NCBI RefSeq assembly: GCF_037975245.1
Contig: NC_092579.1
Location: 26,957,666 to 27,021,665, forward strand
Direction of reading: 5' to 3'
DNA length: 64,000 nt
Origin: Apostichopus japonicus
Lineage: Eukaryota; Echinodermata; Holothuroidea; Aspidochirotida; Stichopodidae
Position numbers and translations under genes: made by a program. Under the pieces are notes generated by a model. The model saw only the letters and a program-made list of their open reading frames with translations, had not been told where the DNA came from and ran no database searches. Below are positions 3,418 to 62,200 of the stretch, piece after piece. The stretch's first letter is position 1. Each line of letters opens with the position of its first letter.

Positions 3418-6400
3418 TCAATCCAGAAAGAAAATATTTGTAAAATGAGAGGCACACATCTTCTTCATCTCCTCTTTAAGAAAAAAATATGAGAAAAGAA
3501 AAACAAGGAAGTTAATACCGGAGTTATAACGTTGAAATTACTGCAATCAGATTTTAACGGAACTTTTCATGATGACACCATTGTTTAACCTAAGATATCG
3601 GTAACGAGCATGTTACCTCTGCCCTACTGACAACTCGGGCTTAAAGTCTGCAGGGAATGTACCTAGACATGTCACCTGTGCCCTTATGTATAGGACTGGT
3701 TAGGTTAGCCATTTTCCCTTTTTAGTGCTTCTTTGACTTGCACGAATGAAACAACGTTCTGTTTCAAGGTAATTGTAAAAAAGATGAATGTACATTGGGA
3801 AATATAGATGTTGATAGCATGGTTTTTTTGGTAGGTAATTGGTGTTATATAGTAGAGTAACACTCACCATTCACTTCTATGAGGTTCCAGTTCTTCTGGT
3901 TGATTGCCACGTAAAACTCTCGCTGGTCTGACTTCTTCCCTACCACCCACCAATCTGTTAAGCTCCTCATAAATGCTTCACCATCTTCTTCTGATCTACG
4001 AGATCAAAAAAAAAGAGAAAAAAACTGATGTATCGGATACTTTCTACTAAGCACATTATAAATGTATCAGCTACTCAAAATTTAGCACATCACATCCATG
4101 ACAGACTTGATACATAGCACATCACATCCATGATAGACTTCATAAATAGCACATCATAAAGACACAATGTATCAGATACTCAATATTTAACACATCACAT
4201 CGATGATAGACTTGATACATAGCACACCATAAAGAAACAATGTATCAGATACTCAATATTTTAGCACATCACATCCATGATAGACTTGATACATAGCACA
4301 CCATAAAGAAACAATGTATTAGATACTCAATATTTAGCACATCAATGATCGACTTGATACATAGCACATCACATCCATGATAGACTTGATACATAGAACA
4401 TCACATCCATGATAGACTTGATACATAGCACATGATAAAGAAACTATGTATCAGATACTCAATATTTAGCAAATCTATGTAGCAAATCACACAATGGAAG
4501 AATCCATCAGGGACTCGATAAAAACACATGGAAAAACACATCTGCCTTAACTCAGTGGTTATACTGAACCTTTCTAACTAATTCAGCCGATGGTACTATG
4601 GGGCAGACTTGTGACAAGTTGAATACTTGTGTTTGATTCCTTAACTTTCCACTGACTTACTTTGAAAAGTCTGCATTGATATCTGCTATCAGCCTCAGAA
4701 TCTCTGGACTGATGGTCAGCGACGCCGTCTTCTTACTGTGCACCGTTGTCTTCTGTGCCAAATTCATGTGATTGAAATAGACAAATTTGTAATCCTGACT
4801 TCCGCTGAAACCAAAACATGACCGCAAATGTGACATCACTTGAAGAAGATTCGTATCAGAGATAGAAAAGATATTAAAACTTTATCAGAATCAAAAAAAT
4901 TAAGAGTGAACAAGAATTTACGGGAGCAAGACAAACACCAGTTGTTGATCTTCTAATGTTTTTTTTTTTACTAGGTTTCATTGGACTATGTTGCAATTTA
5001 ATCTTTAAGTCCAATGGCTCATATGTAGATATTCTGCACATAGTTCCTGATGGGGAGCCACCCCCCCATCCTCCTGTCCATGTCCCCACAAAACAAATAA
5101 AAACACACACAAATGTAAACTGAATCTCTCTTCCAACAACCACTTTACATTTACTGCACACAAGTTTATACAGCAAGCTTGAGTCTATACAAATTTCCAG
5201 CTTATAAGAACATATCGCTATATTTCAGTCAAGTAAGTACGACCTACCCAGACACTTTCCTGTTTGCGTACTGTTCGGCGATGTCGGACGCCAGCCTACT
5301 GAGTTGAGGACCTAAGAACTGGTCTATCTTACGAAACCAATCCCTGGAAGGTAATGCACTACCTATGTCAGCAGAAAGGTAAATGGAAATGTGTTACATT
5401 AAGAACACAGAATGTGGTCAAGCCTCTCATTATGGTGTGACGGTTTGGGGCATAAGTATTATTTAAGTAATAATATTATAAAAACTTGGGTTCATCTGTT
5501 CAACCTATAAGATGGTAAGAAATGAATGCTACGGAAATCAAGTGTTACAAAGCCATCTGAGGTGCTCCTCAACCTTTCCACCTGTGCTAAATATTACGCA
5601 TTAATGTGTTCTCATTCATGCGAGTAGAACGAGCACTTCCAACTTAAAACATCTAAGTGTGTAAAGAGGTTTCATTAAATATGACAGATTTGTAGAAAAC
5701 TTACCATCCACCATAAGGCAAACTGTTGCACTTAGTGCCTACGGAAAGAAAAAAAGAACAATACCCTGATATTGAACAAACAGCAAAATCAGAAAAATAT
5801 TTCAACCTTGGAAAAGTACAGGGACACAAGTTCTCCTGAAAGAACTCTTGTCATTAGAAAATAAGCAATAAACAAATTGCGAGACATCTGAATTAGGAAG
5901 TAATGATTACCTCCTGAAATAGCTATTAATTAATTATTTAATTAAATATTTAATTTAAAAACAAACACATTTCATCTTAGGTGTACGAGCCATTAGGGAA
6001 TGGCATCTGTCCTAAGACTGGAAAGCTCAGCAGCTTGAGTAAAGGGATTTACATTCCTATGAAAGGTTACTGGTTTGAATCTCATTCTAGAAAAAATCAC
6101 TTCAATGTGTCTTAAAAAATTGACTGAATTTGAATTATTTTATTACATCTTTGAGGGCATGCTTTCACTTTAAGAATTTTAAATTCTTACCCTATGAACA
6201 ACATCATTTAGGTTGTGTTTTCACTATAAGAATTTTAAATTCTTACCCTATGAACAACATCATTTAGGTTGTGTTTTCACTATAAGAATTTTAAATTCTT
6301 ACCCTATGAACAACATCATATTTGGCGTGCTTTCCCTTTAAGAATTGTAAATATTCTTACCCGATAAACGACGAGATGTAACACATCTGTTTTACTTTCA

Positions 6401-9400
6401 GAATGAATGTATATATTAGGTAGCTGGATGGAGGCGTTGACATCACCGAAATTTTTAGGTCCCTTTACAAACCTGGTAATAGATACGAAAAAACAAAACT
6501 ATAGATCAGGAATGAGACATTCCTAAAAATATTTAGTCATAGAAATAGGTTAATTACGACATGTTTTTAGTCTTTACTTGTTTAGATGTATATCTGTGTT
6601 TATTTTAGACTTATATTTAATATAAGTTGAGTGTGTATTAGTATTCAGAAATTGTGTGTGTGTGCGTTTGTTTTGCATTCTGACCGAGGACTTGAACAAA
6701 AGAATTTCAGGTCCTCGGTTGTGATTTCTAAAGAATCACTATGTCCTCAGAAGAATTCTATTGTATGGGGTATTGCTAAGGTTAGGGTACATGGATCTGA
6801 ACAATGGAAAATACAATGGGGTTGTCGGTCTGAATGTAATACAAACGTGTGTGCGTGTGTGGGTGTGTGTGTGTGTACATGTCTAGGCCTGACAAGTGGT
6901 GACATGAGCCAAAAGAAATCAGTGTCACCAGTTGTCAAGGCAATATAGAACAATAGTCAATTGTTGTCCAGACAAAGGGTTGTAGCTAATACAATGTCAA
7001 ACAAATGTGTGTGATTGTGTGTGTTTGCATATGCGACAGAATAATATGCATCCCATCTTCTGTTCCCAGAGTCAAATCAACAGCAGAAAGAAATCCTTTT
7101 CCTGTTCACAATCTGCTGTTATCCAAATGAATAAAACTTAAAGGAGGTGGTATGAAATTTTGAAAGAATTATATCAGCCTTGGTCAATTCACTGTCTGAG
7201 AATGATTTGTTAATCATACTGAAAATACCGCTCCGCTCATGACTCTGTCCGCATATCATTTAAAATTTTAATTATGATTATAGCAAATGAAGATAGTCCT
7301 TACTTGCCAAAGTGAGCACTACCCTGGGGTCCTTTTGCTGCAGACTCCTGAAACGGAAAATAGCGGAAATGATATTTGATGTCATATTTTGCTTTATCGA
7401 TATTATACTACATAAGGTACTTTCCTGAAATCACAATGACATGTCAAAGGTCAATTAAGGTAAGAAAGATTAAGATCGTATGATAAATGTAAATATCGGC
7501 CATTTTTGTTTTCTCTTGACCTCTTGGCTCACATCGCATCACAGGTTACAGATAACACGATCAAATTATTTATTACCACTACAACGACTAAGAAGATAAG
7601 TTAACATCACAAGACTGATGGTATTAATGATATCTCAAACCTGAATGTGACATATTGTGTCAAGTACAAATATTTGATGTCATGACATAGCTTGACACTT
7701 CCCCCCGGTTCTCGGAGTATACCAGAGTGTAGCCGATAAGCAGGTTTTGCTTGAATTCAAAGTACAACAAGCTGACATTAATGTATCCTACAGGACAAGG
7801 CTCATTATATTTATACTTCCCTAATGTGAACTGAAATGAAACAAGCATGTCAAATTTATGTCTGCTTCTCCCATTGTCCATTCCAGCAAATGGACAAATG
7901 AAATATATATGATAACACTTCTCAACCCCCCCTAGTGCTGTGACCGATAAGCGAGTACTCGCTAACCGCTCGCAAATCGCGATAAACGAATACTAAAAAC
8001 ACTCTTGCGATTAATCGCTTTTACAAAAAAGTTTTTTGAGAGTATGTAAACACACACTAAATAAACTTAACATTACGTTTAAGTTTTACATAAACTTTAC
8101 ATTACGTTTTTGGGGGGTCCCCCAAAAGGGGATGAGGGGGTTGGTGAAAATTGCGAAAATTTTAATTTTGGACAGAGAAATTCTGACACTATGACATGAA
8201 AAGAAGCACATAAAATAAATGCCCATTAGTAGAAGAACAACTCTATTTGTACAGAGGAAGAAAACCATCTTTACTGTCAAGATGAATATTAATATCATAT
8301 GGTCCCCCCCCCTCATGCCCCTCTGCTTCTGAAAACATACACCAACTTATTCCCTTCTCTCATCTTCCCTCATCTCTTTCAAAATGTGTGCTCATGTTTT
8401 TTCATAAAAATTCAGTACTTCAAGGAAGAAGAAAAAATTGGCTTTACCTCTGTATCCAATAATGTTGGGAAAAGACTAGTGGTGAGATACTTGTAGAGTG
8501 TTCTCATGTCATCTTGTTCCAGCCCACTCCTGAAATAAAAATGAGAGCTTTTTTTGTCCCTTATACAACACTGGTGGTATGCTGACCCTTTTTAAGGCAC
8601 AACCTAGTCAGTGAAGATAGCCAGGTCTCCTAAAAGAGGGAAAGGCCCAAAGGCACTCTGAGAGAAAAGGTCATGTACTTCAACCAATTCAACCTTTTTT
8701 GCCGTAACACACTCAAGGCGACAGTTACACAAATCTAACCGGGAAATGTCTCCCAAACAGTTTATATTTACTATAGCATGAGCAAGATAAACCACAAGCA
8801 TACTTCATGGAGATAAAGCAACTTTTATTGGTTGTTTTCTGGCAAACCAGCTAACAAAAATATCCATAATAAATTCCTTTCTTTGGCATAACAGCTCACA
8901 AATGTATCCATAATACAGTCCTTTTAATCCATTACCGAAGAGTGATACAAATTTTTGTTTACGAGAAATGATTTTCCCGGAATTCTACCACCCCCCCAAA
9001 ACATTGAATACATGAACTAGGATAGAGTGATACTAAAAATACATGTCTGATAACAGTTGCTAGACAATAGTCTCAGGTACATCATCTTCTAAACAGGACT
9101 GGGCTAGTACAGTCTCTTAATACATGCTTAACGGATGAATTAACTTCAGTATTAAATTAGAGGGTAGGCAAAAATGCAATGATAATGCTTTACCATACAG
9201 CAGCCAATTAATTGACTCTGATACTCCAGTCAAGGTAAAGCACTTACCATACTAACTGATCGTTGTATAGGAAAGCCGTATATTTGATCTGTGTGAAAGA
9301 GGCTTCGATGAGGTTGATGAAACACTGAATGCGTAGGTAGGTATTCTTGTCAAGCGGTAAAAACTGGATCCCATTCTGTATGTCTAAAATATCACTCTGG

Positions 9401-12400
9401 TTAAGCCTTAAAGTTTCCAGATACTTGATAGTAGAGACAAAAAAAAAAAAATTCAAATACATAAAAAAAATTGTCACTGCAAAGACTAGAAACATGATCT
9501 TATAAACAGAGATATTTTATACGATAAAAATGATAATATATTTACTTCTGAAGATAACACTTGTGACAAAAGCTGAATAGTATTTTTTTCCATTTTTTTA
9601 AACAGCATTGTACTATGCGATACTACAATAGAATTATTCCCTAAAGTGCAAGTCATCACAACAACTATGTGTTTGTAATACCACATGTTTGATAGCAATT
9701 TTTAGTGTATACTTTTAGTAAAGCAGAATCAGAAAACTATTCATCACAATAAAGTAAATTCACTCAGGGAGCAGACTACAGGGTGCACACTGCTAAAATG
9801 GTTACTCAAAGGAGCAAAGAGTGGTGATAAGGTGAGAGGTACACTAGTACACTAAGAAAGAAAACAATGACAAACCTGCGAGAAGAAATGGTTCAGTCGA
9901 CTCTTTAACTCTTCAATGCTGAATTTGTTCACGATATCAGCAAAGCTGCCCATGAAGAACTACAGGATATGGAAAACAAAACAAGATATGACATTCACCT
10001 GCAACCTTGTCGTCTTACGATAGGATGAAAAATAATAAATCAATATAACAGGTCCGGAACATCATAGCTAAATAGGGAACCCTCAAATCCTTCAATGAAG
10101 GAAAATGCTTTGTACCATTTCAATGGCTTACCCTTATAAGGGAGCCCTTATAACACATTCACCCTCCAGTATTGTAGCGCCCTCCATACTCCATAGCATC
10201 TACATTTACTCACCTTTAAGTTTATAACATGTCTCCCCCCCTTCCCTTACCCTTCCCCTTCTCATTACCCACCACCAACTGCAGAATGGCATTTCATGGA
10301 CATAATTCCGTCATCTTCGACAAAGATTATTTCCGTAGTCCAATACCCCTCAGACCAGACCAAGATCAGAGTTTACCTTGAACATGGTGTATGCTTGCTT
10401 CAGAACAGCCTGATATACTGTATCCTGCACATCTTCCTCATGGTACTCGGCTATCGTCTTGCCATCTTCCGTCCGATGTGTCACTGGCACTTTAACAATC
10501 TGGAATTGAAAAGGTAAATGTTCAGAAAATTATACCATTCATATTTCTAGATTGATGAATTATTGTTTATTTATCTAGATAACTTTATTTTTTTTTGGGG
10601 GGGGGAGGGGGAAGGTTGGTAATTGAACACCATTGCATCAAATCCTTCTGAAACTGTGATGGATTAAAATAATTTTATTAATTCTTGCTTTAATTAAACC
10701 AAATATCATATTAGAAGCAATTGAAATTGAATTTAAATTTCAAAAAGCTACTTTAGTTTAAGATTTTCATTTATAATCAAGACACACAATTCTCCAGATT
10801 TACATATAGCTTGATTTTGTATGTTATAACTATTAACTAGAAGCGGAGTTTAATAGTATAGTCACTGTGTTTAAGCTAAAAATATGAAAAGGGTTCCAAA
10901 TTCAATAATGAGCACTATCTACAAATATTGAGAAGTCAAAATGTTCTGTCACTTGCTTGGAAAACACTGTGTAACTGTGATTAACATGAAAACATTAAAT
11001 TTATCAAATTTATTTGAACTTAACATTGAAATCTCACTCACAAATTCATAAGTGAGGAATCAGCTATCAAACTGTATCAAGAGCTTCAGCAACGTCATTT
11101 GGCTAAAGTTCTTATAACATTTCTTCAGTCATGTCTTAAGTTTGAATTTGTATTTATCTTTCCACTTAAGGCATCCCAAAATTGCCACTTCTCCCCAAGA
11201 TCACTTTGTTATTAAGAGGTTTCATGACTTGAAATCAAACATAAAATAAAAATACAGACCAAAACAATCCAGAAATCTGGCTCTGGATTTAGGAAGAGTT
11301 GTCTTGTCTTTTGAGTGTGAACTGCCTCGCAACTCTTGCTTGGTGCAAACTCACTGTGTGATAAAATACAAAATACTACATGTAGTTCCATTCAGAAAGG
11401 AAAACTGATTAAGACTCAGAGGATACATATATTACATACTCCCCTAACCCTCCCTCTCCCCCCCTCTCCCCCACCCCAACATCCTTGGACCCTCATATCT
11501 CACTCCTGTGAAATTGTGAAAGGTTTGAGATGACCATTGAGTTATATTCAGGCTTATGGCAGTATACTGAGAGGACAATACTCAATGTATTTTCAAATTA
11601 ATTACATTAACAAGTTTATACTTCCATTTATTGGTATAATATCCTGTATGACTGCCAGGAATTATTCATCTTCCAATGAAATTAGCAAATATATTGATGA
11701 CTATAACAATTCCATCACGAGTCATTCATCCGGCTGGAATATTAACAACACCTCCCATGTATTAGACGTGAATCAAAGGAATATAGGAACTCACTCTGCA
11801 AATTGTACCACTGCTTCAGAGAGACCGACGCTCCTAATTTGAGTATCTAAGTTTGTACTTGATGGATGGAAAAAGAGCACTTTCTTGTGTTCCTGTGTAA
11901 AACAATATCCATTGGTTTCTTGCAATATTAAATTATATAAATATGTGCAACATTCCAATAACAAATACACAACATTCTATTTCATTCATAAAACATATAT
12001 CTTTCGACATGTTTCAAAATGAAGTGTGAAACGGGAAAGTTAGGATGACCAATGATGAAGCTGTAAACTCAGACTGGAATGTAATGGTCGCAAACTTTTA
12101 GCAAGAGTCTGTGGGAGCTAGGGGGTGGGGGGGGGTGGATGTTATGACACTACAATTTAAAACTTGGGTATCCTAAGAAGGGCACTGTCACACCGAAACA
12201 TCTGCGCTGTACTTTTTCTACGTGACTTGTTATGACATTTGAACGTCACTAGTAAATAAATAGTCAATTTCTTGAATCAATTTATCGGACATATCATCAA
12301 TTATTTAGGTATACTTTTTGAAGCTCTGTCAATAAGCAATGCCAATCAATGTTGAGGAACAGACATAGGCGTCCTTCTGAATGTTTCATATTGAAGGAGA

Positions 12401-35880: not shown

Positions 35881-36434
35881 TCGGTTTTGGCAAAGAAAAA
35901 TATTCAAAAATATTACACTGAGACCCACAGAAATATTGTATTGCAACTAGCTGATGACTCACAGTAATTAAGGAAACCAGTGTTCTACTATATCATAATA
36001 GAACACTTTCATATTTTATTTTCAGATTGGTATTAAAATCTATCATAAATGTTTCAATATTGGACTCCATAGTAATAATAATTAAATGCACTATTAAATT
36101 TACATTTCTTAAAGATGGGAGTTCAGTTATTTAGTAAGTTAAATATGTACCAAATATGTAACAAGTGGTTTTGGCAAAGAAAAATATTTCAAAATACTAC
36201 ACTGAGACCCACAGAAAAATATTGTATTGCAACTAGCTGGTGACTCACAGTAAGGAAACCAGTGTTCTACTATATCATAATAGAGAACTTTCATATATTA
36301 TTATCAGATTGGTATCAACATCCATCATTAATGTGTCAATATTGAACTCCATAGTAATAATTATTAAATGCACTATTAAATTTACATTTCTTAAAGATGG
36401 GATTTCAGTTATTTAGTAAGATAAATATGTACCA
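35881..36434. repeat. About 290-bp tandem duplication
   Basis: GGTTTTGGCAAAGAAAAATA occurs near 35884 and 36171. In both copies it is followed by the same succession of words, including CTGAGACCCACAGA, CAGTGTTCTACTATATC and TTTACATTTCTTAAAGATGG. Copies differ by small indels and point changes. Confidence 0.88.
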
Positions 36435-39400
36435 AGCTGGGCTTTGTTCTTCTATTTACATAGCAACTTTAAATGTCATGCATCTGCCATATTTATTTAT
36501 TAGATTAGAATCTTGACACTGTACTACCCAAGCTACATAGTGCTTCAACAAATCCATCCTGTCCCTCTGTCTGCCATTCAGGTATCAACCAGCTAAATAT
36601 GTCTGTAATTGTGGACAATTTGTCATTGTCTTTTTATCTATGCATGTAGCACCTGATGTTGACCAACAAGTGTCTGATGCATATTTTTGGCATTTTTAGT
36701 GTTAATACCCAAAAAGTTAACAAATGAGTCTGTGTAAAAATTAAACTTATATTTGAGAAATGATGAATTGCTGCATCATAAATTCCATGAAGGTTTATTT
36801 TGAGCATATTTGTAATAGGTATGTTTTAATAATTGGAACACACTCATTGACACTATGCCAATGGGATGGGGTGGGGGTTGGGGAGGGTGAACAAAATTAC
36901 TTTTGTGATTCCTGCCAAACTAGGCAATCATTGATAGTGGTTACTAGCAAAGAGACTTGCCACTACTCAACTTTTAATTCCTGATTTTGACACTGTAGCT
37001 GATAACTAAGTCATTACTTAAAAACCTTTTTTTCTGGTAAATTTGTAGGTTTGTTCTTAAATGGTATATATTATACATATTAAATATGATTAAATAGTTT
37101 ATAGTTGTTGTCATTCAATTTCATAAGAACTTTTCATAAATGTGTTACTTTAATTACTGTTTCATGGTTGGATGTTGGTTTTGTTCACTTTTCAACATTT
37201 TTGCTCTTTCCTGTTGATCTTTCAATTAATTCTCATCCCTTCCAATTGGTAGTAGAAGTTAATAACTTGAAAACTTGTTTCTTTATCTGAAGTTGTTGTA
37301 ATATAACAGGGAAACCTGAATAGTTTGCTCGAATAATCAGCATACTCATCTATTTTCATCTGACATTATTTTAGTATTTGCTGTCTAAAGTTAATTGCAG
37401 TGTTTGCAAGACTTTTTTTCAATTCTGAACGTTTTTTAAACAATAGCTTTACCTTTTCTATTGTTGTCTTTGTTTTGGATTACTCAAGGGTTGCAAATAG
37501 CCACACAATTGGTCATTTCTTAAACACTTTTCTATGGTCAAATTTGACTTTAGTTAAAGCTTATACAAGTATTTTATTCGTTCATAGATTCAACAACTGT
37601 TAAAAATTCAACTTTGAGTGGACATGGTTTGTGAAATGTGTGCTTTGCTGAATGTGAAAGTGGACTTCATAAAGGTACTGTATAATTACAGGGCACTCAA
37701 ACTGGCTAAATTGTATCCTAAAGAGATCTCATTCCTATTTTTAAAGGATCTCATTTGGTCAAAAACTTCATTTACGGTAGTATTTCTTTTGATTTATTCG
37801 CATAATATTCATTGTAGTGCTACTTACAGTAGCCAAAAGTCATTCTTTTTATGAATTTCAGTACCCGACCGTTAGGAAGCAACATTTCTTTGAGCTTCAC
37901 TTAACTATATATAGATGTTTGAAGCAATAAATATATTATATACAATTCATTTACAAATGTGGGAGGGAGAGAACCTGGGGAGAATTTCAAGGTATTGCAA
38001 AGATTATCAAGTATGCTTTTCAGATTTTTTATTTTTACCCGGTGGTTAAAATATTATTAAAGAAGTAAGTCTGTTTCATTATAATAACATTTATGCAATT
38101 TCTGTATCTTATTGTCTTCTTTTTCCATTGTCTTCTTTTCCATTGTCTCCCTTCGCTGTTTCCCTCAGTTGAAGTTCACAACCAATAATTAAAAGATCAC
38201 ACAATTTGACCACGTATTCACATCTTATGATATTTCATTGTTTCTTGATGCCTTAGGGTAGCATACGCCCATCAAAAGCCCCATTGACTTACACACTAAA
38301 TCACAAAAGTAATGTGGTCTATAAGTCTAAATAGAAGTTCTCACTAGCTTAACACTACCCATCACTGGATAGCTGACAAGGTGGCCTTTCATGGCACCAT
38401 CAAAGTATCATGACCATGGAGATTGTTTGCTATCCGAGCCTGAAGTTTTCGTCACTTGTAAACAAACCTCTTCACTCAGTTGTAAACAATTTTCGAACGC
38501 TACTCCTGGGAGGCCTAAAGGGGTCTAAAATTGCCTCAATTGACCCAGTTTATGCACCACATGTACTTCCATTCATGCTCTTCAGCATGCAAACCACAAA
38601 CAAACAGATTCTTATTGATAACATGTCAAAAAAAGATTTTCTCCTACTGCATTTTGGCACTTTTCCTACTGTAATAGGATTATACCACCTTAGCATACCC
38701 CCTGGAAAATTGTTCAATAGCGCCGTACGGATATCGGTAAAGACAAGACCCGTAAACAGATGGCGCTGTCGCACGTCTTTAGCTTGCACGGCGGTAACCC
38801 ATTTTTGATTGGTGAGAGCAAAACAACGATCAGGCTCAGCCGTTTACGTCGCCGTGCAGGCTTGATGAGGTAAACAGCCTTGTATACAGGTTGTTCGTGA
38901 CATTTACAAGTTCGTACTGAATTTAAGTTTGAGCTCGGTAGTTGTGACGAGCACAGACTGGACCCGAACCCTAGAACCATTATTTCCTTTGGGTACAGAA
39001 TTGGAAACGTTCGCTGTAATAATCTGGACCAAGCCTAGCCTTTTCATGGCATGTGATATTTCAGGCCGCAGACTACAGCCTGGAAATAATACAAAGGCTG
39101 CATAGCCTAACGCGAACGACGAACGTTTGACATAAAATAGTAACAGCAGCCGAAGTTAGTAACAATAAACAGTATACTCTAGCTAACAGAAGTGCTTCTT
39201 GTATTAGCCTGGTTGTAAATTGCCTCATTTGACGTTTCAATTGACTTGATGTTACTGAAGTTGCATAGCCGTTGCAAATTTAGGTAGGTTGAACAACAGA
39301 AGCCTAACTCGAGGCGATTTGTTTTCATTAGTCTAACGTCCTAGCCTGTAGGCCTAACTTTAGTTAGCCTACTCAGTTGTTAATTTAAACGACGTAGCCT

Positions 39401-43299: not shown

Positions 43300-44540
43300 T
43301 CACTGAAGTGCTACAACCATGGAAACAAGGATGCATGCAAAATTCCAGTTTGTGTATTTATATGTACAGCACTGTGCAGTAGTTGTGCATAGCTGAAAGT
43401 GCTCAAGGTGTCGGCAGGTACATGTATGATCTCTGTGTACACCCCACAACACTAATTGTTGATGGGCTGTGTTACCAGTTACACTCAGAGTATCTGTGCA
43501 AGTGAGGTTTTGCAATATAGATGTAGTTAAGTATGATGACCGACTGCAAATTCGTCACTTTGTCAAGAAAATGCTAGGAAGAACAAGTATGTATGCCCCC
43601 CCCCCCCCCCCAAAAATGCATAATTTTATACTTCACAGAACATTGTGAAGTAATACCGGCATTGTCAAGTAATACCGGCCACTATCTACAATATCGGTCC
43701 CAAGGACGGTATACTGCACAATATGAATACAGTATTTGTTGCCTTGATTAAAGGTTAATGTGTTCGTGCAAATAAATCTTATGCAATGTTCATGTAGTTA
43801 TTCAAATTTGTTGACTGTTTATTTATCTGTTTGTCATGAGAAATGCAAACAGCTTGGGATGCAAAGATGCAGACGAAATTCCAACTGTTGTACTATGTAC
43901 AGTACTGAGCAGTACAATATAGTACAGTGCAGGACTGAATAGTACAGTTTAGAACAGTACAATATAGTGGAGTACAGTACTGTGCAGTATAGTTCAGTAT
44001 AGTACAGTAGAGTAATGAACAGTATAGTAAAATACAGTGGAGTATAGTACAGTATAGTATAGTACAATACATTACAGTACTGTGCAGTATAGTACAGTAC
44101 TGTGCAGTATAGTACAGTACTGTGCAGTATAGTACAGTATAGTAATGTAATGAACAGTACAGTATAGTATAATGAATAGTACAACACAGTGGAGCACATT
44201 ACTGTGCAGTATAGTACAGTACTGTGCAGTATAGTACAGTACTGTGCAGTATAGTACAGTATAGTAATGTAATGAACAGTACAGTATAGTATAATGAATA
44301 GTACAACACAGTGGAGCACATTAATTTGCAGTACAGGACAGTACTTAACAGTACAGTATAGTACAATACAACACAGTGGAGTATAGTACAATGCATTACT
44401 ATACAGTATAGCGGAGTAGTTTTTAATTACAGAAGCTGAAACCAATGCACATACAGACAAGTAACTCCCAAGTCCCAACTACAATCCCTGAAGTACACTC
44501 CACAAAATGAATAGTTGATGGGCTGTTTAAGCAGTGATTC
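43300..44540. repeat. Duplicated unit with an expanded AGTAC/AGTAT array
   Basis: A segment at 43317-43500 and another at 43840-44530 share the same flanks: AAATTCCA on one side, and an ACxCCACAA...GTTGATGGGCTGT stretch on the other. The first has a single TACAGCACTGTGCAGTAG core. In the second the core has grown into about 530 bp of AGTACAGTAT-type repeats (43890-44420), including a larger internal duplication of about 120 bp. Confidence 0.7.
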
Positions 44541-50672: not shown

Positions 50673-51760
50673 TTTACAACCCAGCAGGCTTGAGAAAGAT
50701 AATAGGAAGACCATCTCCTGTCAAAATGTTTGTTATGGGTGTCAAGTCTGTTTTCAGTAAATTGAAAAGAAAATCCCACATGTATGTGAGAATTTCTGGT
50801 TATTGGATGTTTCAGACTTGTTATGTTTAATAGTAAGGCACATTGTCCTGTATACTGTGTGACATTCTACCAGCTAATTTATAGCTTGTCTAATTTGATA
50901 AGATCTGTCTCTCTGCTGAGTAGTTCATTTAAGAGTAGTGGGTACCCTGTCATACTCCAGATGGATCATATGGTAAGTGCAAATTGTCAAAGTACGGTTC
51001 ATATCATGTTACACTTTTGTATACCACATGCTTGGTCTTGAAAAACCACAAAATCAACCACTTCTTTGATGAGATTTAAAGTAAATTCCAAGTAACATGG
51101 TATTACTTTGTAATCTGATTATTTTAGAACAATCTACTACATGAATCACTCGGTCTCTGTGGCATGTGCAATGGGGGATCATGGCTTGGGTGATGGCTGG
51201 GGAGATGGCTGGGGTTCCCCTGCCCACCTTCCAATGTCACTTGAGGAAAATTGTTCAGTCAGGGGATTGTTACATTTTGGCCAGAGAAAAATTACCACTC
51301 GACCTTGTAGAAAAACTAAAGAGTATCACAACCTTTCGAGGTACTTTAGAGGTACTTTTACAGTTATAGTCTAAATATGCCCCAGAATGAACCATTTGAT
51401 ATCAAACCTTTTTTTTTTCTGTTGGGGGAAAATTCAGTAAGACTCATTTTCCATTGTTTGGCACATGAATGAAAGTTAAGTATATATACTTGAATGGCTT
51501 ATCCATGCAATGGAGACCTTCATACTTTCACAGTACTGTTAGTCCATTTGAATGATTATATCAAAATACGAATATTCATGAGTTGTCGCTATCGGCGAAG
51601 GAAACCTGATGGAAGCTGGCAGGTGGTAACCAGTATAAGGTATCAAAGCTCATGAATGACACCCGCTACATAGGGAACTGCATACAGACACGTTGCATTA
51701 CATCGTTTTGAAGACTGATATAAATCCGTACCTCGGACAGCATGCAGGGATGGTGTCGTC

Positions 51761-52340
51761 AATAGTACACCTCACATGACAATAGTATACCTCACATGAC
51801 AATAGTATACCTCACATGACAATAGTACACCTCACATGACAATAGTACACCTCACATGACAATAGTACACCTCACATGACAATAGTGTACCTCACATGAC
51901 AATAGTGTACCTCACATGACAATAGTGTACCTCACATGACAATAGTGTACCTCACATGACAATAGTGTACCTCACATGACAATAGTGTACCTCACATGAC
52001 AATAGTGTACCTCACATGACAATAGTGTACCTCACATGACAATAGTGTACCTCACATGACAATAGTGTACCTCACATGACAATAGTGTACCTCACATGAC
52101 AATAGTGTACCTCACATGACAATAGTGTACCTCACATGACAATAGTGTACCTCACATGACAATAGTGTACCTCACATGACAATAGTGTACCTCACATGAC
52201 AATAGTATACCTCACATGACAATAGTATACCTCACATGACAATAGTATACCTCACATGACAATAGTATACCTCACATGACAATAGTATACCTCACTTGAG
52301 AATAGTATACCTCACTTGACAATAGTATACCTCATATGGT
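51761..52340. repeat. 20-bp minisatellite, 29 units
   Basis: The unit is AATAGTGTACCTCACATGAC with no length variation over 29 copies. The variable position reads TACAC, TATAC or TGTAC, arranged in blocks: mixed TACAC/TATAC at the left, a long TGTAC block in the middle, and TATAC at the right. The edge units are the most diverged. Every frame on both strands contains stops. Confidence 0.97.
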
Positions 52341-52878: not shown

Positions 52879-53216
52879 ATCTAGATGGTATTCTGCATTC
52901 CATAAAGTCTTCTGTGTTTGTCCATAATCTTCAAAGCTTTTGTGTGTTGTACTTTATAATATCTATACTTTTCACACAACTGCAAACATTTTACAGCTCG
53001 TTTCAAACACTACTTCAGACTAAATTTTGCCAGTATCTGAAGCCTATTTACTTTGATACTTATTACCCCACGGCTTCACTTGAGCACAGTGTAAATAAGA
53101 TCATTTTCCAAATCAAAGTCATATATACATAATATTTCTTTATCTTTTCTGTAGATGAAGGGATTGAACGATTAGCCAGAGAACTTGCCTGTCAAAAAAA
53201 AAATCTCCCGGCCAGG

Positions 53217-56200
53217 ATGTCGAACCTGTGGAAGAAATTCAGTGACTTTCTGGGTATTTCGGACCCAGAGTTTATCATTGCACCTCCACTGGAAGGAGAG
53301 ATCATTTACTGCAAAAATAATGTTTGCGTGCACCCTCCACCTCAGCTGTCGTCCCTACCGAAGCATCTGCCGGGTTACATGACCATTCGGACCCACGGCA
53401 GTGGATATCTGAACACCTCCCTGATTCTGACCTGGATTCCTAACATCTCCATCAACCTGAACACAGCAGAGAGGGATTCTGTCGTATCGTCCACTTCTGA
53501 GTCTTCCCCGGTCAGAGTCGAAGAGAGTCCCAAGCTGAGTCTGGGATCGAAGGAGGACAACGAAAGCCACGACTCTGCCGTGGGCGGATTCCATCTGGAT
53601 GGGGAGGAGAAGGACGGGGAGGAGAAGCATACAGAGGGCGACAGTCCAGTCAGTTTAAATGTGAGCTTCCAGGACTCGGGGATAGGGGATGGAGACCAAA
53701 AATCAAAGCTGAACGAAATGTCGGACGGCTCGAGAAATGACTCTGAGAATTTGGGGGACAGCCAGGTAATTCAGGCGGATGGACCGCCAGAGGTGGAGAG
53801 AGACGGCGTCAGCATAGAGGATACTGCGGAGGATGGAGGTCTGGCGGCACGGAGGGGCAGTTCCTCCGAATCCTCGACCAGCGGAGACTTACACACGGAG
53901 TTGATGCTCCATAAGTTACTGGGGGATCATGAGATCCGTAACCCAGAGGAGAGCGAGAGCCAGCCAGAGAGACCATCTGAGTTGGATCTACTGAACGGGA
54001 CGAAGAAGGACGAAGACGACATCGGCGACGACAACAGCATCTCGAGCGCCTCTCAAGGCTCGGAGTATCCAGAACCGTTCAACAGCTTCCTCAGGAATCT
54101 ACAAGAGGATGATCACATGACCAGCGACATGTCACAGGCATGGCTGCATAACATGATGTTTCCCGATAACGCCATATCTCTGTTTGCGGAAGGCCAGACG
54201 GTCTCCATGACAAACCCCAGGGAGCAGCTCTGCGGGGTGTTTGCAGTTGACCTCTGCCACATGAGGTCGTTGAGGATATTCTTCAGCGATGAGAGCTGCA
54301 CAAGTGGACAGTTTGTGATCGCCAGCCGTGAGAGTCAGTACAAGATCCTTCATTTTCACCACGGTGGCCTAAATAAGTTAGCAGAGGTGTTTGAACACTG
54401 GCAGCATTGCATCAAAAGTCTAAACAGAGTAAGTTCAGATTTTTTTTTTTTTTTTTTTTTTTTTCAGTTTGGCATTTCCAGAGTTCTCTACTTTCAAATA
54501 TTTCTATTTTTTCCCGAACTTTTCTATAATTGTCTTTTATTTGCTAGGACGACCCAATTCAAGTCTACATGTCAATGACTTAAAGTAAAATATTCATGAG
54601 GATTTTACCTGCGTTGACAGTATAGGCAAATATACTGCTTGGAAGGAGAACAAAAAGATGAGGCCTCCCACGCAATTTTCCTTTTTCTTCTTCTTCTTCT
54701 TTTTATTCACTCTGTTGAAAAAGGATATCTTCTACTCCAAAGGCATTTCAACCATAAATGGAATTTCATTATGTGGAGATTTTAAAATATTCAGGAGTCT
54801 ACCTTCTAGGCTTAATGTAGTGCACATAGGCTTTCTGTGAGCTGAGTTTGACAACATTACCCAGTGTTAGTTTACAAAATAGTTGACGTAACTAATGTAT
54901 CTGAAAGGGCTACATTTTGGTTAGCTTCAAGTTGAAGGGATGACTTTTTCTAATATTCAAATTGAACAGCTGTGAAGGTGATAGTTATTATAATTGGTCC
55001 TTATCTTGGGTAGGAACTCTAGGAAGAACGAAGTTGACATTTATAATATTTTACTTCATTTCTCGGTTAACTTTCTCCTCACAGCTAGAAAACTTGATAC
55101 ATACAATTTTTGGTTCATAACTGGTACATGTAGGTTTTTCTGGGCCCATTTTTGGGCTTGTTGTGCCCAAATTTTAATTTCCACCTCAAATTCATTCAGG
55201 ACACATTCTTTGGACCCAAATTTTGTGGAGCCCAATATTTTTGGGACCATATGGGCCCACATTTTCTTTACATTGCAATAACTCTGCAAATGTAAGTTGG
55301 GTCGTTGCCATACTTGGTATACTGTTGTAGGTTACTAGCTGGTACACTTGGGCATAAGTATTATGATATTTGGTGATGACATACAACGCTTTAATATTCC
55401 ACTAAGCAAGAAGCTGTAGTACCCGTTGCGCTCTTGATGCCTCCAGTCAATAGATTACCAAGAACACCATCTGAAGTCATATAGTACAAGATTTGGTGTC
55501 CAAGTAGTATCTATAGACATCTCTTGTACAACTTCCTGTTTTCTTGTTACTGATACAAGACCTTTTTTTTAAAACACATTTTTTTCATGACTTTTTTTTG
55601 ACACAGAGTATCTACTCTTCAATTTCTATTTTCTATTACAGGACCAACCAGGAGGGGAGACCACCGACCTCTGTCGGAAATTTACGATTATCCAGTCGGG
55701 TTTGAAAGCCAAAGACTGCCATCCAGAAGAGGGTATTTATGGGGTCATTAATGAGGAAATTTGGAGGTCGTATGTTAATGAGAAAGGTCAAATTGAAGAA
55801 CCCTATGCCTTACGGAAGGTAAAATTCTGCAATAATTTTTTTTCTTCTATCATTGCAAGGTGAAATTGAATGGTGAAAATATATACAGTAGTTACATATG
55901 TTTCTGCTTTGCATGAAGTACTGTAACTATTTTGGGATGGTTCATGTTCAAGCTTTGGCTACTATTCTACACTAAAATCCCACAGCAATGCAGTTTTTTA
56001 GCTTAGACTTCAGGTAAAGTTTTAAGCAAATTGGAAAAAAAAATTCAGCTGGTAGTTCTTTACATCAGATTTAAAACCAAAGTGAAAAGCATGTGGACCA
56101 AGAAATTGTTATTCATTCATGACTTACTTATTACTCCCCATTAATTAACTTTATTTTAGTCAGTGTGGTATTCATGTACGTTTGATGTTATGTGTTATCT

Positions 56201-59200
56201 TATGGCAGGTTTGTTAACACTGCTAGAAATAGCCTTCCAGATGCAAGCTGAGCTACTTTTATTAGCTACAGTTCCAATGTTGTATTTTTCATTTTGTAAT
56301 ATTTAGTTTTACAGTACTCTATGAAACGGACAGAATTCAAACTTTTCAGTTTCTTAAATAATAGACTACAAGTCTTTAGTAATTCAGTCCTGAAAAGTTT
56401 GCAACACTCAAAGTCTTGCTTTGATTTATACTCAAAATGTCTGTCCCCCTTTTCTTTTCTTTTCTTTCTTTCGTAAAAAAAGGCCATATTTTTCGGAGGC
56501 ATCGATAAAACCCTCAGAGCAGAGATTTGGCCCTTCCTTCTGGGAATGTTTGACTTTGAGTCAACAGAAGATGACAGAATGGTGCAGGAGAAGGAGAAAA
56601 CTGCAGAGTATGAAGATATCAAGAAAAAGAGGTGAGGATGACAAGAAATGGACAAATATAAGTAATGGTTAAAGGCATTGAAGACTCGCCCCAAACCACA
56701 TGCGGCCATCTGAAAAAGTTAACTTTCTGTTGCTTGCAAGTGACGTTTTGTTTGTGTCACTACAAAATGCAGAAAGTAGTGAAACGTGATACCTTGTTAT
56801 CTTTAGCTGGACCTGAGATGTCCATCGCTGTATCGTTTATACACTGTGCTGTGGGTATTGACTGCTATATGCACTGACTGTACACTAGTGTCTAATTACC
56901 GATGGTAGCAAGCTGTGTATGTATTTTCTGGGATCGATGGTGGTGTCTAACACTTCTGTTACACCTCATTCGAAACTAGGTCAGATTACCGGCATTAGAC
57001 GTTTCTTGTTGTGCGAGTCTTCACACCCTTTAAGTAAAAAGAAGATAATAGGGTTCTCTAGCCACGCCCCAAATCAACAGAAGGCGCTGTCATGTCTTTC
57101 CCATCTACTTGACAAGCTGCAGTCTGAGTCTGAGTTGATAAGAAGTAATTTGTACAATTTGCCATCTTAATTATGGAGGAAGAGACCTTTTGAAACATAT
57201 TTGAAAGTTTCAAGTCAGAATTATTGTTTTAAGCAACTTAACTTTTCTATATAACCCATTTTGAAGGTTCAGTCAATATGCACAAGTTGGGGCCTTGAAC
57301 TAGTCAATCACTCAGCGTGTCTGTATGCAAGTTCATCCTGTGTGTTCACATGCATGTGAACGCTTTCATGGAGATGGTGTTACTCTGATTCAGGGATCTG
57401 TAAACGGTACAGGTTAACTTTCGTTAGGACCGATGTGAAGCCCTGGAGAACGCCCCATTGATATATAGTGTACAGCAAAGCATAGCACTTTCACATTTTA
57501 GCCAGACTGAAGTGAGCTGCAGTTTTCAATGAGCAATGAATATTGTGAGCTGATGCATGAGTCATCACTGCACATGGTATTATTTTGGAAAGCTTTTAGT
57601 CTCTTCAACAATTCATGAGTAAGATTTATGATCTGAAATGATTCACATTAAGCTTGCTCTCAGACTGTCATGTGATGCCTCGCCTGGAGGCCAACATCCA
57701 GAGCAAATATCATGTGTCAAAATGATTTGCAAAAATGGGCAGATTATTGTGTATGCAAATTTGTGTAAAGATGTGTATCAGGGTTTTTACATACAGACCA
57801 TTGTACTAGTGCAGCTTCAAATCAGCATTTTACAATAAACCAAATAAAACCAAGAACTAAACTAAAACCCTGCCCAACCCAAATGTAATGTACAAGTCAG
57901 TGAATATTAAAGGTAGTCCCACCTCACTTCAACTGTAGCAAACTAAATCGGGTAAGAGGCCTAAGGACCCAAATTGATCCCACCCTAATTGCATTGCTCT
58001 ACAGTAAGTTACAGTCTTGTAAATTCTCTTCTCTGTGTGTAGGGATGTGACAATTATCCTATTTCCCTAAAAATCCCTTATTTCAAATTCTTGGGAGGAG
58101 TTTCCTTTCCCCTACTTGATAAACTTTTCTTAAAACAAAGACCCTGGCTTTTTCTGCTAATGTAACCTTGATGCATCCTGTCACATGACCCTGTTTGCTC
58201 CTCTTTTCACCATCTCTGTCCTGCCATGCTCTTTCTCTGGTCCTTGCTCTGATCGAGTCCAGACGTGTTATTCGCAAACCACCACAAATCAGTATTCCTG
58301 ATTCTTGGTTTAGATTCTAGTAATTCCGATCAAGTAGTGGTGGTACCTTATCATCCTGCATCTGATACAGATGACAATGGTCCTGAGCCTAGCAGTAGCG
58401 ACAGCTCAGGAGATGATGGCAATCAGGCTGACTCTGATTCTTCAGATTCAGATGCCCCTAGACCACGGAAAAGTAATAGGGCCACCAATCTAAGCAAAGC
58501 ATATGATGTGCAACTCTCTCTTTTTGCTTTTCATCTTTTCAGAGCATCAATGACTGAAAAGGAGAAAGAGCAGTTTTGGAAGGATGTCAGGTGTACCGTG
58601 GAGAAAGATGTCATTCGCACCGACAGAGGCAATCCCTACTTCAGAGGCAAAAATAACCCCAACCTGGATGTCATGTGGTAAGTTTTGTCCTCTTTGAATG
58701 CAGTATTATTCCAGCTTATCTTTTATCCTGGATTATTGAATACAGTAAATCCCAGCTTCCCTTTAATCCTGGATTATCTCAATCTGATCTCCAGAGTATT
58801 AAACCTGTCACTTGATTTGAAGGAAAGAGTCAAGTCATAACTACTTATGTTTTATTGATGTTGCTGGATGTGTCATCTATTGTCAGAATTTTGTGCTACA
58901 AGTACCTCAAAAACTGACAGATACGAGGTACAACCACATATACTGCGGGAGAGGGAGAGGCCAGAACAGTCTTGAGTGATGCAGTTCAACACCCCCCCCC
59001 CACCCAACCCACCCATCCCCATTGGCAGATCAAATTTCTAATGTACAGTATAAACATAAATAACAAGTATTTTGCAGAAAACTTGTTCCACTTTTTTTCA
59101 AAAGATGCCACAAGTATTGCAACAATTTTGCATATAAGCACCCTCCATATAACACCAAATTTCTCAAAATGGAATGGAGCAACCCTTCCCCTAGAACTAC

Positions 59201-62200
59201 TTGGATTGAAGCACTCAGCTTCAGCTGATCTCCAACACTAGCTCCAGTGTGGGCTTCAGTACGAATTCTGAGTCCATTGTCTGATCTATTCTAACACATC
59301 TTATATCTGATTGGGGGGGGGGGGACTTCATGCAGCTGTACTTGGCTTGATTCTTGAAGAACAAACCAGCTCCAATGAACCAGGCACTGGCCTCGGTTAC
59401 AGAGTTGACTCCACAATGTGCAGGATAAGCGAAGCTCCTTAACCAAAGTAAACCTCCAGTTTCAAAGGGATTGCTACCAGTATTGTGACAGTGGAATCTT
59501 GATTTGAAAACATGGGTTCTTGGAACCAGGGAGGATCAAAGAACTTTGCTCAGAGAGGTGGTTAAGTAAAAATGTGGGAGGAAAGGTTATTTTTTTTACT
59601 TGCCCTGTCAAATCTCCTTCAAAAGTCTTTCTGACAAATCTTCAACTCTACTTGCTCCAGAGACAGCTTCATATCTGTTCTGCAACTACTGTCCCAAATG
59701 ACTGTTAGGCAAACCCTGGCTTGCACACCATATAGCAAGCCTATCCAACTCCCATCTCAGTCATGGTATTGAAGGTGGCTCCTTATCCCTGTTGGTCCCT
59801 AGATTACCTCCACTGAAGCCATCTTCACACCAATCACTGACAAGGTTTCCACCTGAAAGGAGTGGTTGCTTAAGGAACTAACTTTCTTCCTGAGAAAATC
59901 ATATTTATGTTTGCAATTAAATGGTACCCCTGAGCCTAAGCTGATTTAGGGAATGAAAAGACATTCCTTATCGTTTGCTGGATTCAGTTTGCTTGAAATT
60001 TAACGATATTGGTCCTCACAGTCTGAGTCATGATTAACTGCTTTTAAGTCATGCACATTTGTTTCATTGATCATATCCGCCTTTAGCTAGACATAGCTGA
60101 AATATTTGCTCTTTACGGTAATTCTTGCATATTATTGTTTGTCTGCCATACATATATCTTCCTAAACTACGTATTAGATTGTGTCCTGGAAGGAATTGTC
60201 AACCAGTATTTGCTCTTGACAGCAATTCTTGCACATCATGACTTTGTTGGCATGTTGTATATCTTTCTTAAGTTCTCATATTACAAAGTGTCCAAGGTAG
60301 TGGTACCAGTATTGGCTTGTACAGCAATTTTACATGTTACATGTCTGCCTTTACTTCCCATCTTATATCTAGTGTACAAGGAAGTAGAACTGGTAATTGC
60401 TCTGTAGCAGTTCATTCAAGTTTATCATGATTTGTCTACATGTTGTATATCTTCATTTACTTGTGTCCATGATACCATCTGTTGTAGGCTAGGTAGATCA
60501 ACTGCATAAGTAGAATCGAGACAGGTAAGTATCGTCATTCGTAAATCCCCAAACCAGTAAGTTTTGGGACCCAGCACAAGAAAGGTGCTTGTTCCTTGCT
60601 AACAGAAACAAACGAGTAAATGCCCCCCTGCTGACAGAAACAATGGAGTTAGTGTCCCCCTGCTGACAGAAACAAAAGAGTAAATGCCCCCTGCTAACAG
60701 AAACAAACAAGTAAATGCCCCCTACTAATAGAAACAAACAAGTAAATGCCCCCTGCTAACAGAAACAAACAACTGAATGCCCCCTGCTGACAGAAACAAT
60801 GGAGTTAGTGTCCCCCTGCTGACAGAAACAAAAGAGTAAATGCCCCCTGCTAACAGAAACAAACAAGTAAATGCCCCCTACTAATAGAAACAAACAACTG
60901 AATGCCCCCTGCTGACAGAAACAATGGAGATAGTGTCCCCCTGCTGACAGAAACAAAAGAGTAAATTCCCCCTGCTAACAGAAACAAACAAGTAAATGCC
61001 CCCTGCTAACAGAAACAAACAACTGAATGCCCCCTGCTGACAGAAACAATGGAGTTAGGGTCCCCCTGCTGACAGAAACAAACAAGTAAATAACCCCTGC
61101 TAACAGAAACAAACAAGTAAATGCCCCCTGCTAACAGAAACAAAGAATTGAATGCCCCTCCTGCTGACAGAAACAATGGAGTTAGTGTCCCCCTGCTGAC
61201 AGAAACAAAAGAGTAATTGCCCCTGCTAACAGAAACAAACAAGTAAATGCCCCCTGCTAACAGAAACAACAACTGAATGCCCCCTGCTGACAGAAACAAT
61301 GGAGATAGTGTGCCCCTGCTGACAGAAACAAAAGAGTAAATGCCCCCTGCTAACAGAAACAAACAACTGAATATCCCCCTGCTGACAGAAACTAACAAGT
61401 AAATGCCCCCTGCTGACAGAAACTAACAAGTAAATGCCCCCTGCTAACAGAAACAGTGGAGTACATGCTGGCGCACATTATGATGCTATAGAATGTTGAA
61501 ACTTTAGTTTGTTATTACTCAAGTTATTAAAATTACTAAATATATTATTACTATATTAGTACTTAAAGTGTAGAAACACAAGTTATCTTTTGATACTGCT
61601 TTAATTCCACATCCAGAGAGTCTCAAGAATAGACTTGTCTGCATATCCAAGGTTAATATGCATACACAGGCATTTAAAAAGATATATGTGGCTGAAGCTG
61701 ATTGCTTGACAAAATTCCTGGAAACGTTGCATATCTTTAGGTCAAACTCACATTCTCGTAGTATATTGTTTGACAAAAGATATGAATTTTTTTCACAAAT
61801 GGTGATCTTATGTGAATGCATCCGTCAATGGCAGAATAATTGATGTCATCATGGCAATTAAACTGAAAGTGTCTTTGTCTTAATACTGTATAATGTTTAA
61901 AATCATGCTTCCACTAACGAAAATATTATGTATATAAAAGCACATGAAGAAGGGAAAACTGACAGGAGAAATCATATACAATGGAAAAGAGCAAAGCAAA
62001 TTTCTTTGCCCTTTTTTCATTGAAAATAATATTCCTACGAAAATATTGCTATTTGATACAATTTCTAAATATATAGAAACCATTACCAGCTAAGCAGATA
62101 TGCCAGATATATCACACTTCAAGGATAAATGAAAAAGAATGTTATAAGAAGGATAGCTGAGCTTTTAAAAATGAAAGCATGATTACAGTATCTATTATCA

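Follow-up and report, generated by a model that had tools for sequence, protein, structure and literature searches.

Which donor is used when a tandem repeat has placed several near-identical splice donors in a row, and only one of them is productive? The CCZ1 gene on the minus strand of a 64,000-nt stretch of Apostichopus japonicus DNA (hereafter the window) raises this question, and its four near-identical tandem donors make it a competition experiment set up by nature, in which the effects of position, pairing with U1 and RNA structure can be separated because the donor sequences are otherwise alike. The gene, the repeat array, its units, the donors and the stop codon are established directly, and our answer, which we consider probable, is that an ordinary minisatellite captured the CCZ1 donor, with the first donor doing most of the work and the copies playing at most a minor part.

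The host gene and its productive donor

Translated in frames with stops read as X, the stretch 14598-4601 gives eight collinear matches to 'Vacuolar fusion protein CCZ1 homolog B' (PDB 9l0d_B, which we take to be the human protein) within chain residues 39-423, so that coding exons match CCZ1 in order; the third minus-strand frame has no PDB match. CCZ1 is a subunit of the Mon1-Ccz1 complex, which activates Rab7. The exon that carries the repeated donor is the seventh of the ten CCZ1 exon ends that were placed. Taken singly it is a weak match to 9l0d_B (i-Evalue 0.44); joined to the two next exons it yields an 84-residue translation across the junction that matches the same chain at E 1.6e-19, and the first-pass annotation of this DNA had thus named the gene correctly. 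A join of seven CCZ1 exons that uses the donor at 6360 reads through without a stop, which identifies the first of the four donors as the true one, and the CCZ1 reading frame continues from this donor only. Another CCZ1 donor, at 11259 on the minus strand, was placed by hand from the protein match and reads TTG/GTCTGT (the slash marks the exon-intron border), departing at +3 from GTA or GTG.

The window as a whole contains no Rfam match at gathering scores and no tRNA (ARAGORN, bacterial code). On its plus strand, an open frame of 481 aa (53133-54578) encodes a Rab-binding domain (Pfam PF12068, E 3.3e-06), and the frame 58253-58681 has no Pfam match; the two together presumably recall TBC1D15-like Rab GAPs. 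If this likeness is real, a Rab7 GAP would sit near a subunit of the Rab7 activator.

Structure of the repeat array

Four donors lie on the minus strand at 6360, 6302, 6246 and 6190, exactly where the first-pass annotation had put them, and each is embedded in GGGTAAGAAT. The true donor, which follows VVYR at the exon end 6361, reads CGG/GTAAGA, and the three downstream copies read AGG/GTAAGA and are all preceded by VVHR codons, as had been claimed. They belong to an array of one 58-bp and three 56-bp units (6372-6147), recorded by TRF as 6163-6369 with period 56, 3.7 copies, 91% match and a score of 317. The proposal that a splice donor had been multiplied by tandem duplication is borne out: there are four tandem units, each with an exon end and a donor, and the local alignment of the true unit with the first copy scores 54, a value reached by none of 1000 shuffles (best 31). 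The outline given to the array earlier needs correction. Its span, 6155-6380, was shifted by 8; the unit length of 56 bp holds for the three copies but not for the unit with the true donor; and this unit (6372-6315), which had been counted as the fourth, is the first in the direction of transcription.

Every unit starts with GT (GTCGTT or GTTGTT) and ends with GAT, and GT is found again directly after the last unit. The units include copies of 12 exonic bases. Taken by itself, the exon side does not prove homology, since 400 of 1000 shuffles reach its local score of 12 (25 nt aligned). We treat the 12 nt as homologous solely on the ground that they border the strong match in the intron and are the same at 9 of 12 positions. 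Past 6147, a fifth, decayed unit was considered and rejected: the tail 6160-6080 scores 15 against a unit, a value that 926 of 1000 shuffles reach. Each copy also carries a near-palindrome that overlaps its donor; the search for it returned six matches (three sites, each on both strands) versus 0.16 expected in shuffles, and none in the true unit within 3 mismatches.

Table 1. Features of the CCZ1 donor array and its surroundings (positions in the window)
Feature	Position	Strand	Evidence
CCZ1 exon, 112 nt, ends in codons LHLVVYR	6361-6472	-	joined translation vs CCZ1 homolog B, E 1.6e-19
GT of true donor CGG/GTAAGA, phase 0	6359-6360	-	
Host intron, 622 nt	5739-6360	-	
Next CCZ1 exon, 34 nt (ALSATVCLMVD plus one base)	5705-5738	-	protein match
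In-frame TGA past true donor, upstream of all three copies	6316-6318	-	
Unit 1, 58 bp: last 12 nt of exon and 46 nt of intron	6315-6372	-	
Unit 2, 56 bp, copy donor GT 6302-6301	6259-6314	-	vs unit 3: 0/56 mismatches
Unit 3, 56 bp, copy donor GT 6246-6245	6203-6258	-	
Unit 4, 56 bp, copy donor GT 6190-6189	6147-6202	-	
Near-palindrome TAAGAATTTAAAATTCTTA overlapping copy donor 6190	6171-6189	-	
Corresponding near-palindrome in unit 3	6227-6245	-	
Corresponding near-palindrome in unit 2	6283-6301	-	

Predicted strength of the copies and outcome of their possible use

Judged by sequence, the copies are good donors, and competition among them is possible. The predicted U1 duplex of each copy has an energy of -8.9 kcal/mol, compared to -10.3 kcal/mol for the true donor, in which an extra pair at C -3 lies beside a G-U pair at -2. 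Values for the nine further donors of the gene that were compared run from -5.0 to -10.2, and six of these donors are weaker than the copies.

The consequences of such competition can be read directly from the intron. An in-frame TGA after 14 codons, before the first copy, had been reported and is found there (Table 1). Splicing from the copies would extend the exon by 58, 114 or 170 nt, of which only the second keeps the frame of the exon; the frame is irrelevant because the TGA comes first. The protein from any copy is therefore CCZ1 up to VVYR, followed by VRIFTILKGKARQI and the stop, so that all three copies give one and the same truncated CCZ1, in agreement with the truncation that had been foreseen. 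Since the truncation is common to all copies, competition would lower the output of CCZ1 rather than diversify it. The stop would lie 13, 69 or 125 nt upstream of the end of the extended exon, two more junctions would follow 34 and 149 nt further on, and by the usual rule the copy-spliced transcripts are probably targets of nonsense-mediated decay (NMD).

These properties invite a different reading from ours, in which the copies are used substantially and the array acts as a poison-extension switch, CCZ1 output falling with copy number via degraded transcripts. We regard this as rather unlikely. It would fit that the copies retain the full GGGTAAGAAT, that they pair with U1 better than most other donors of the gene, and that all lead to the same early stop with later exon junctions downstream; moreover, in a study on human SLC22A1/OCT1, a duplicated donor was used in 38-52% of minigene transcripts (PMC8137991). 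Retention of the donor core is, however, no sign of selection, because at the observed divergence the 8-nt core has a probability of 0.15-0.34 of surviving intact in a single copy by chance alone. The second point against a switch comes from the predicted structure of the transcript.

RNA folding around the donors

A hairpin beside each donor had been noted previously, and one is indeed found at all four; it overlaps the donor, though, its stem starting at intron +1 or +2, and the hairpin of the true donor differs from that of the copies. The former is TAAGAAT/ATTCTTA, with 7 pairs and a 7-nt loop; the hairpin AAGAATTT/AAATTCTT, with 8 or 9 pairs and a 3-nt loop, occurs only in the copies. The TAAGAATT of each copy is one half of the near-palindrome, and a copied donor can thus pair with the bases just downstream of it.

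In silico folding, which ignores proteins and co-transcriptional kinetics, predicts that the copies are costlier to open than the true donor, and does so in 33 of 33 comparisons (three copies in 11 settings of flank, region, temperature and span), which are not independent because the copies share one history. The margin is 0.7-5.6 kcal/mol, and so only 0.7 in the least favourable setting. With flanks of 30, 60, 100 and 150 nt, the cost of freeing positions -3 to +6 is 3.97, 6.14, 6.21 and 6.03 for the true donor and 7.12, 7.66, 9.65 and 7.43 for the lowest copy. Of the 99 other GTAAG sites on either strand of the window, only a few of which are recognised donors, 9, 2 and 3 are at least as closed as the copies 6302, 6246 and 6190 when 60-nt flanks are used. 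For the true donor the number is 19, and it is therefore itself on the closed side.

The local folds are less uniform. Their minimum energies are -4.3 at the true site and -6.0, -6.0 and -4.5 at the copies 6302, 6246 and 6190, so that the last is hardly more stable locally than the true site; as to whether the donors are paired beyond chance, the z values are -2.02 for the true donor and -3.14, -3.14 and -1.95 for the copies. The 261-nt array as a whole folds better than shuffles (z -3.90, 0 of 200), as expected of an array of near-palindromes. Its centroid fold keeps the hairpin of the true donor and leaves the palindromes of the copies unpaired, because each has more than one possible partner. 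In the minimum-energy fold, copy 6302 pairs with copy 6190 and the middle copy folds on itself.

By their predicted opening costs, the copies would be less accessible than the true donor, which speaks against a switch. The first-pass annotation had expected all four donors to compete: good U1 pairing of the copies agrees with this, but the true donor binds U1 more strongly and is more open in all 11 folding settings. As far as such models go, donor choice most likely falls on the first donor.

Growth of the array

The minisatellite would have grown out of the CCZ1 exon-intron border. In the first step, a 58-bp piece may have been duplicated in tandem that began at an exonic GT, 12 bases from the exon end, and stopped at the GAT directly before an intronic GT, and the ends of the units suggest a 2-bp microhomology between the two GT dinucleotides. 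The downstream copy, without coding constraint, would then have drifted and multiplied, most simply in two further steps. Unit 1 differs from unit 4 by 11/56 mismatches and from units 2 and 3 by 12/56, with two gap columns in each case; units 2 and 3 differ from unit 4 by 7/56. The identity of the two middle units points to stepwise growth with a recent last step, or alternatively to gene conversion. In the alignments, part of the 3' half of unit 4 (AAAG.GAAAGCA.GCC) agrees with unit 1 and not with units 2 and 3, and given this partial likeness the simplest history would be an old duplication, a second one within the intron, and a recent third that produced units 2 and 3.

The same differences bear on the explanation that the sequenced individual happens to carry a rare allele with extra units, or that the assembly miscounted them, which we consider improbable. 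Identical neighbours such as units 2 and 3 are where assemblies miscount, and the true number of units could also exceed four. Nevertheless, unit 4 is distinct from units 2 and 3, and unit 1 from all others; at least three units are therefore distinguishable, and at most one of the four could be an assembly duplicate.

How surprising is it, then, that an array should contain a donor? In the window, 42 TRF rows merge into 28 arrays, which occupy 5258 of 64000 bases (8.2%). After dinucleotide shuffling of the window, done three times, TRF listed 0, 1 and 0 rows (best score 56), from which it follows that this sequence is rich in such repeats. In 20000 random placements of the arrays, scored against the splice sites of CCZ1, one or more of the ten located CCZ1 donors fell under an array in 56% of cases. 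For the 17 CCZ1 donors and acceptors together the figure was 64%, and in the actual window a single one of the 17 is covered. That an array captured a donor is thus unremarkable. Other arrays in the window include 29 copies of a 20-bp unit at 51760-52338 (98% match, the highest among arrays above 300 bp), about 27 copies of a 31-bp unit at 60597-61455 with higher-order periods of 125 and 156, a long GTACA-rich array at 43897-44411 with periods of 10, 15, 25, 40 and 122, and two tandem 282-bp copies at 35883-36435 (91% match), whose sole Pfam match, with stops read as X, falls below the cut-off and is probably due to chance.

If an ordinary minisatellite captured the donor, as we prefer, it would have left a single working donor followed by three copies that look intact. 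Splicing would start mainly from the first donor, which comes first in the transcript, has the best U1 pairing and is predicted to be the least closed; the copies, under self-complementary sequence, would leak at most a minor fraction, with the same early stop and probably NMD. A splice signal can in this way be taken into an intron by a minisatellite without loss of the reading frame of the gene. If the copies are silent, the case is of modest interest.

An elaboration to which we give very little credence would turn the array into a variable-number splicing rheostat: each unit would provide a donor with its own lid, self-complementarity of the units would hold the copies shut by default, and copy number or temperature (the lids are AU-rich) would shift the share of CCZ1 that goes to one poison isoform. 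If this were true, Rab7 activation would be tuned between individuals. We also think it most improbable that the copies serve as U1 landing pads, which strengthen the upstream donor or guard the intron from premature polyadenylation. Four U1-complementary sites do lie within 170 nt, and an AATAAA at 6144 is located just past the array, but AATAAA occurs nine times in the 7.2 kb of minus strand scanned, which makes the adjacency weak evidence, and the predicted pairing would hinder U1. A mobile or introner-like origin of the unit, which the near-palindromic core might suggest, seems extremely improbable: the 19-nt core is found nowhere else in the window with up to 3 mismatches, every unit carries bases of the host exon, and there are no exact matches in viral or prokaryote contigs, where a eukaryotic element would hardly be expected.

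Comparison with known systems

The closest parallel among the open-licence papers searched is the common human polymorphism rs35854239 in SLC22A1/OCT1, an 8-bp duplication at the donor junction of exon 7 (PMC8137991). There, too, a natural tandem duplication keeps the original donor, and use of the downstream copy lengthens the exon, brings in an early stop and truncates the protein. Beside the high share in minigenes given above, deep RNA sequencing of liver found only 0.3% in heterozygous and 0.6% in homozygous carriers, and pyrosequencing at most 2.1%; NMD is named by the authors as a possible reason for the low use (PMC8137991). In contrast to this short, polymorphic and measured duplication with one extra donor, CCZ1 has units of 56-58 bp, three extra donors and near-palindromes over the copies. 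A SUN5 variant is discussed as another human case of donor-site duplication (PMC7927044).

Tandem duplication is also a source of introns under the Rogers model, with a case described in potato RdRp (PMC4974935) and cases in Drosophila (PMC2891723). The likeness lies in the multiplication of splice signals by tandem duplication, and the potato duplication likewise crosses an intron-exon boundary (PMC4974935). The new introns in these examples stem from duplication of a 3' border or of an exon segment bearing AGGT. In CCZ1, on the other hand, it is the donor border that was duplicated, and the copies lie within an intron that was already there; by inspection of the sequence, a further intron is not expected. 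The copies read ATAG-G-GTAAG; an AG is thus present, but its use as an acceptor would leave one G too many, and the first intron formed in this way would span fewer than 60 nt. A recursive splice site consists of AG followed directly by GT, and none of the three copies contains one, as they read AG-G-GT.

Donors hidden by RNA structure are mentioned for MAPT exon 10 and SMN2 exon 7 (PMC9311317), and CCZ1 resembles them in a predicted stem over the GT-proximal bases. In those genes the real donor is masked and regulated, whereas in CCZ1 the prediction is that masking affects the copies more than the real donor. Proteins could shift the balance of donors either way, given that SRSF1 is reported to favour intron-proximal and hnRNP A1 intron-distal donors (PMC5585400). 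Among these systems, the CCZ1 array stands out, as read from its sequence, by its four donors, its long units and the near-palindromes that overlap the copied donors.
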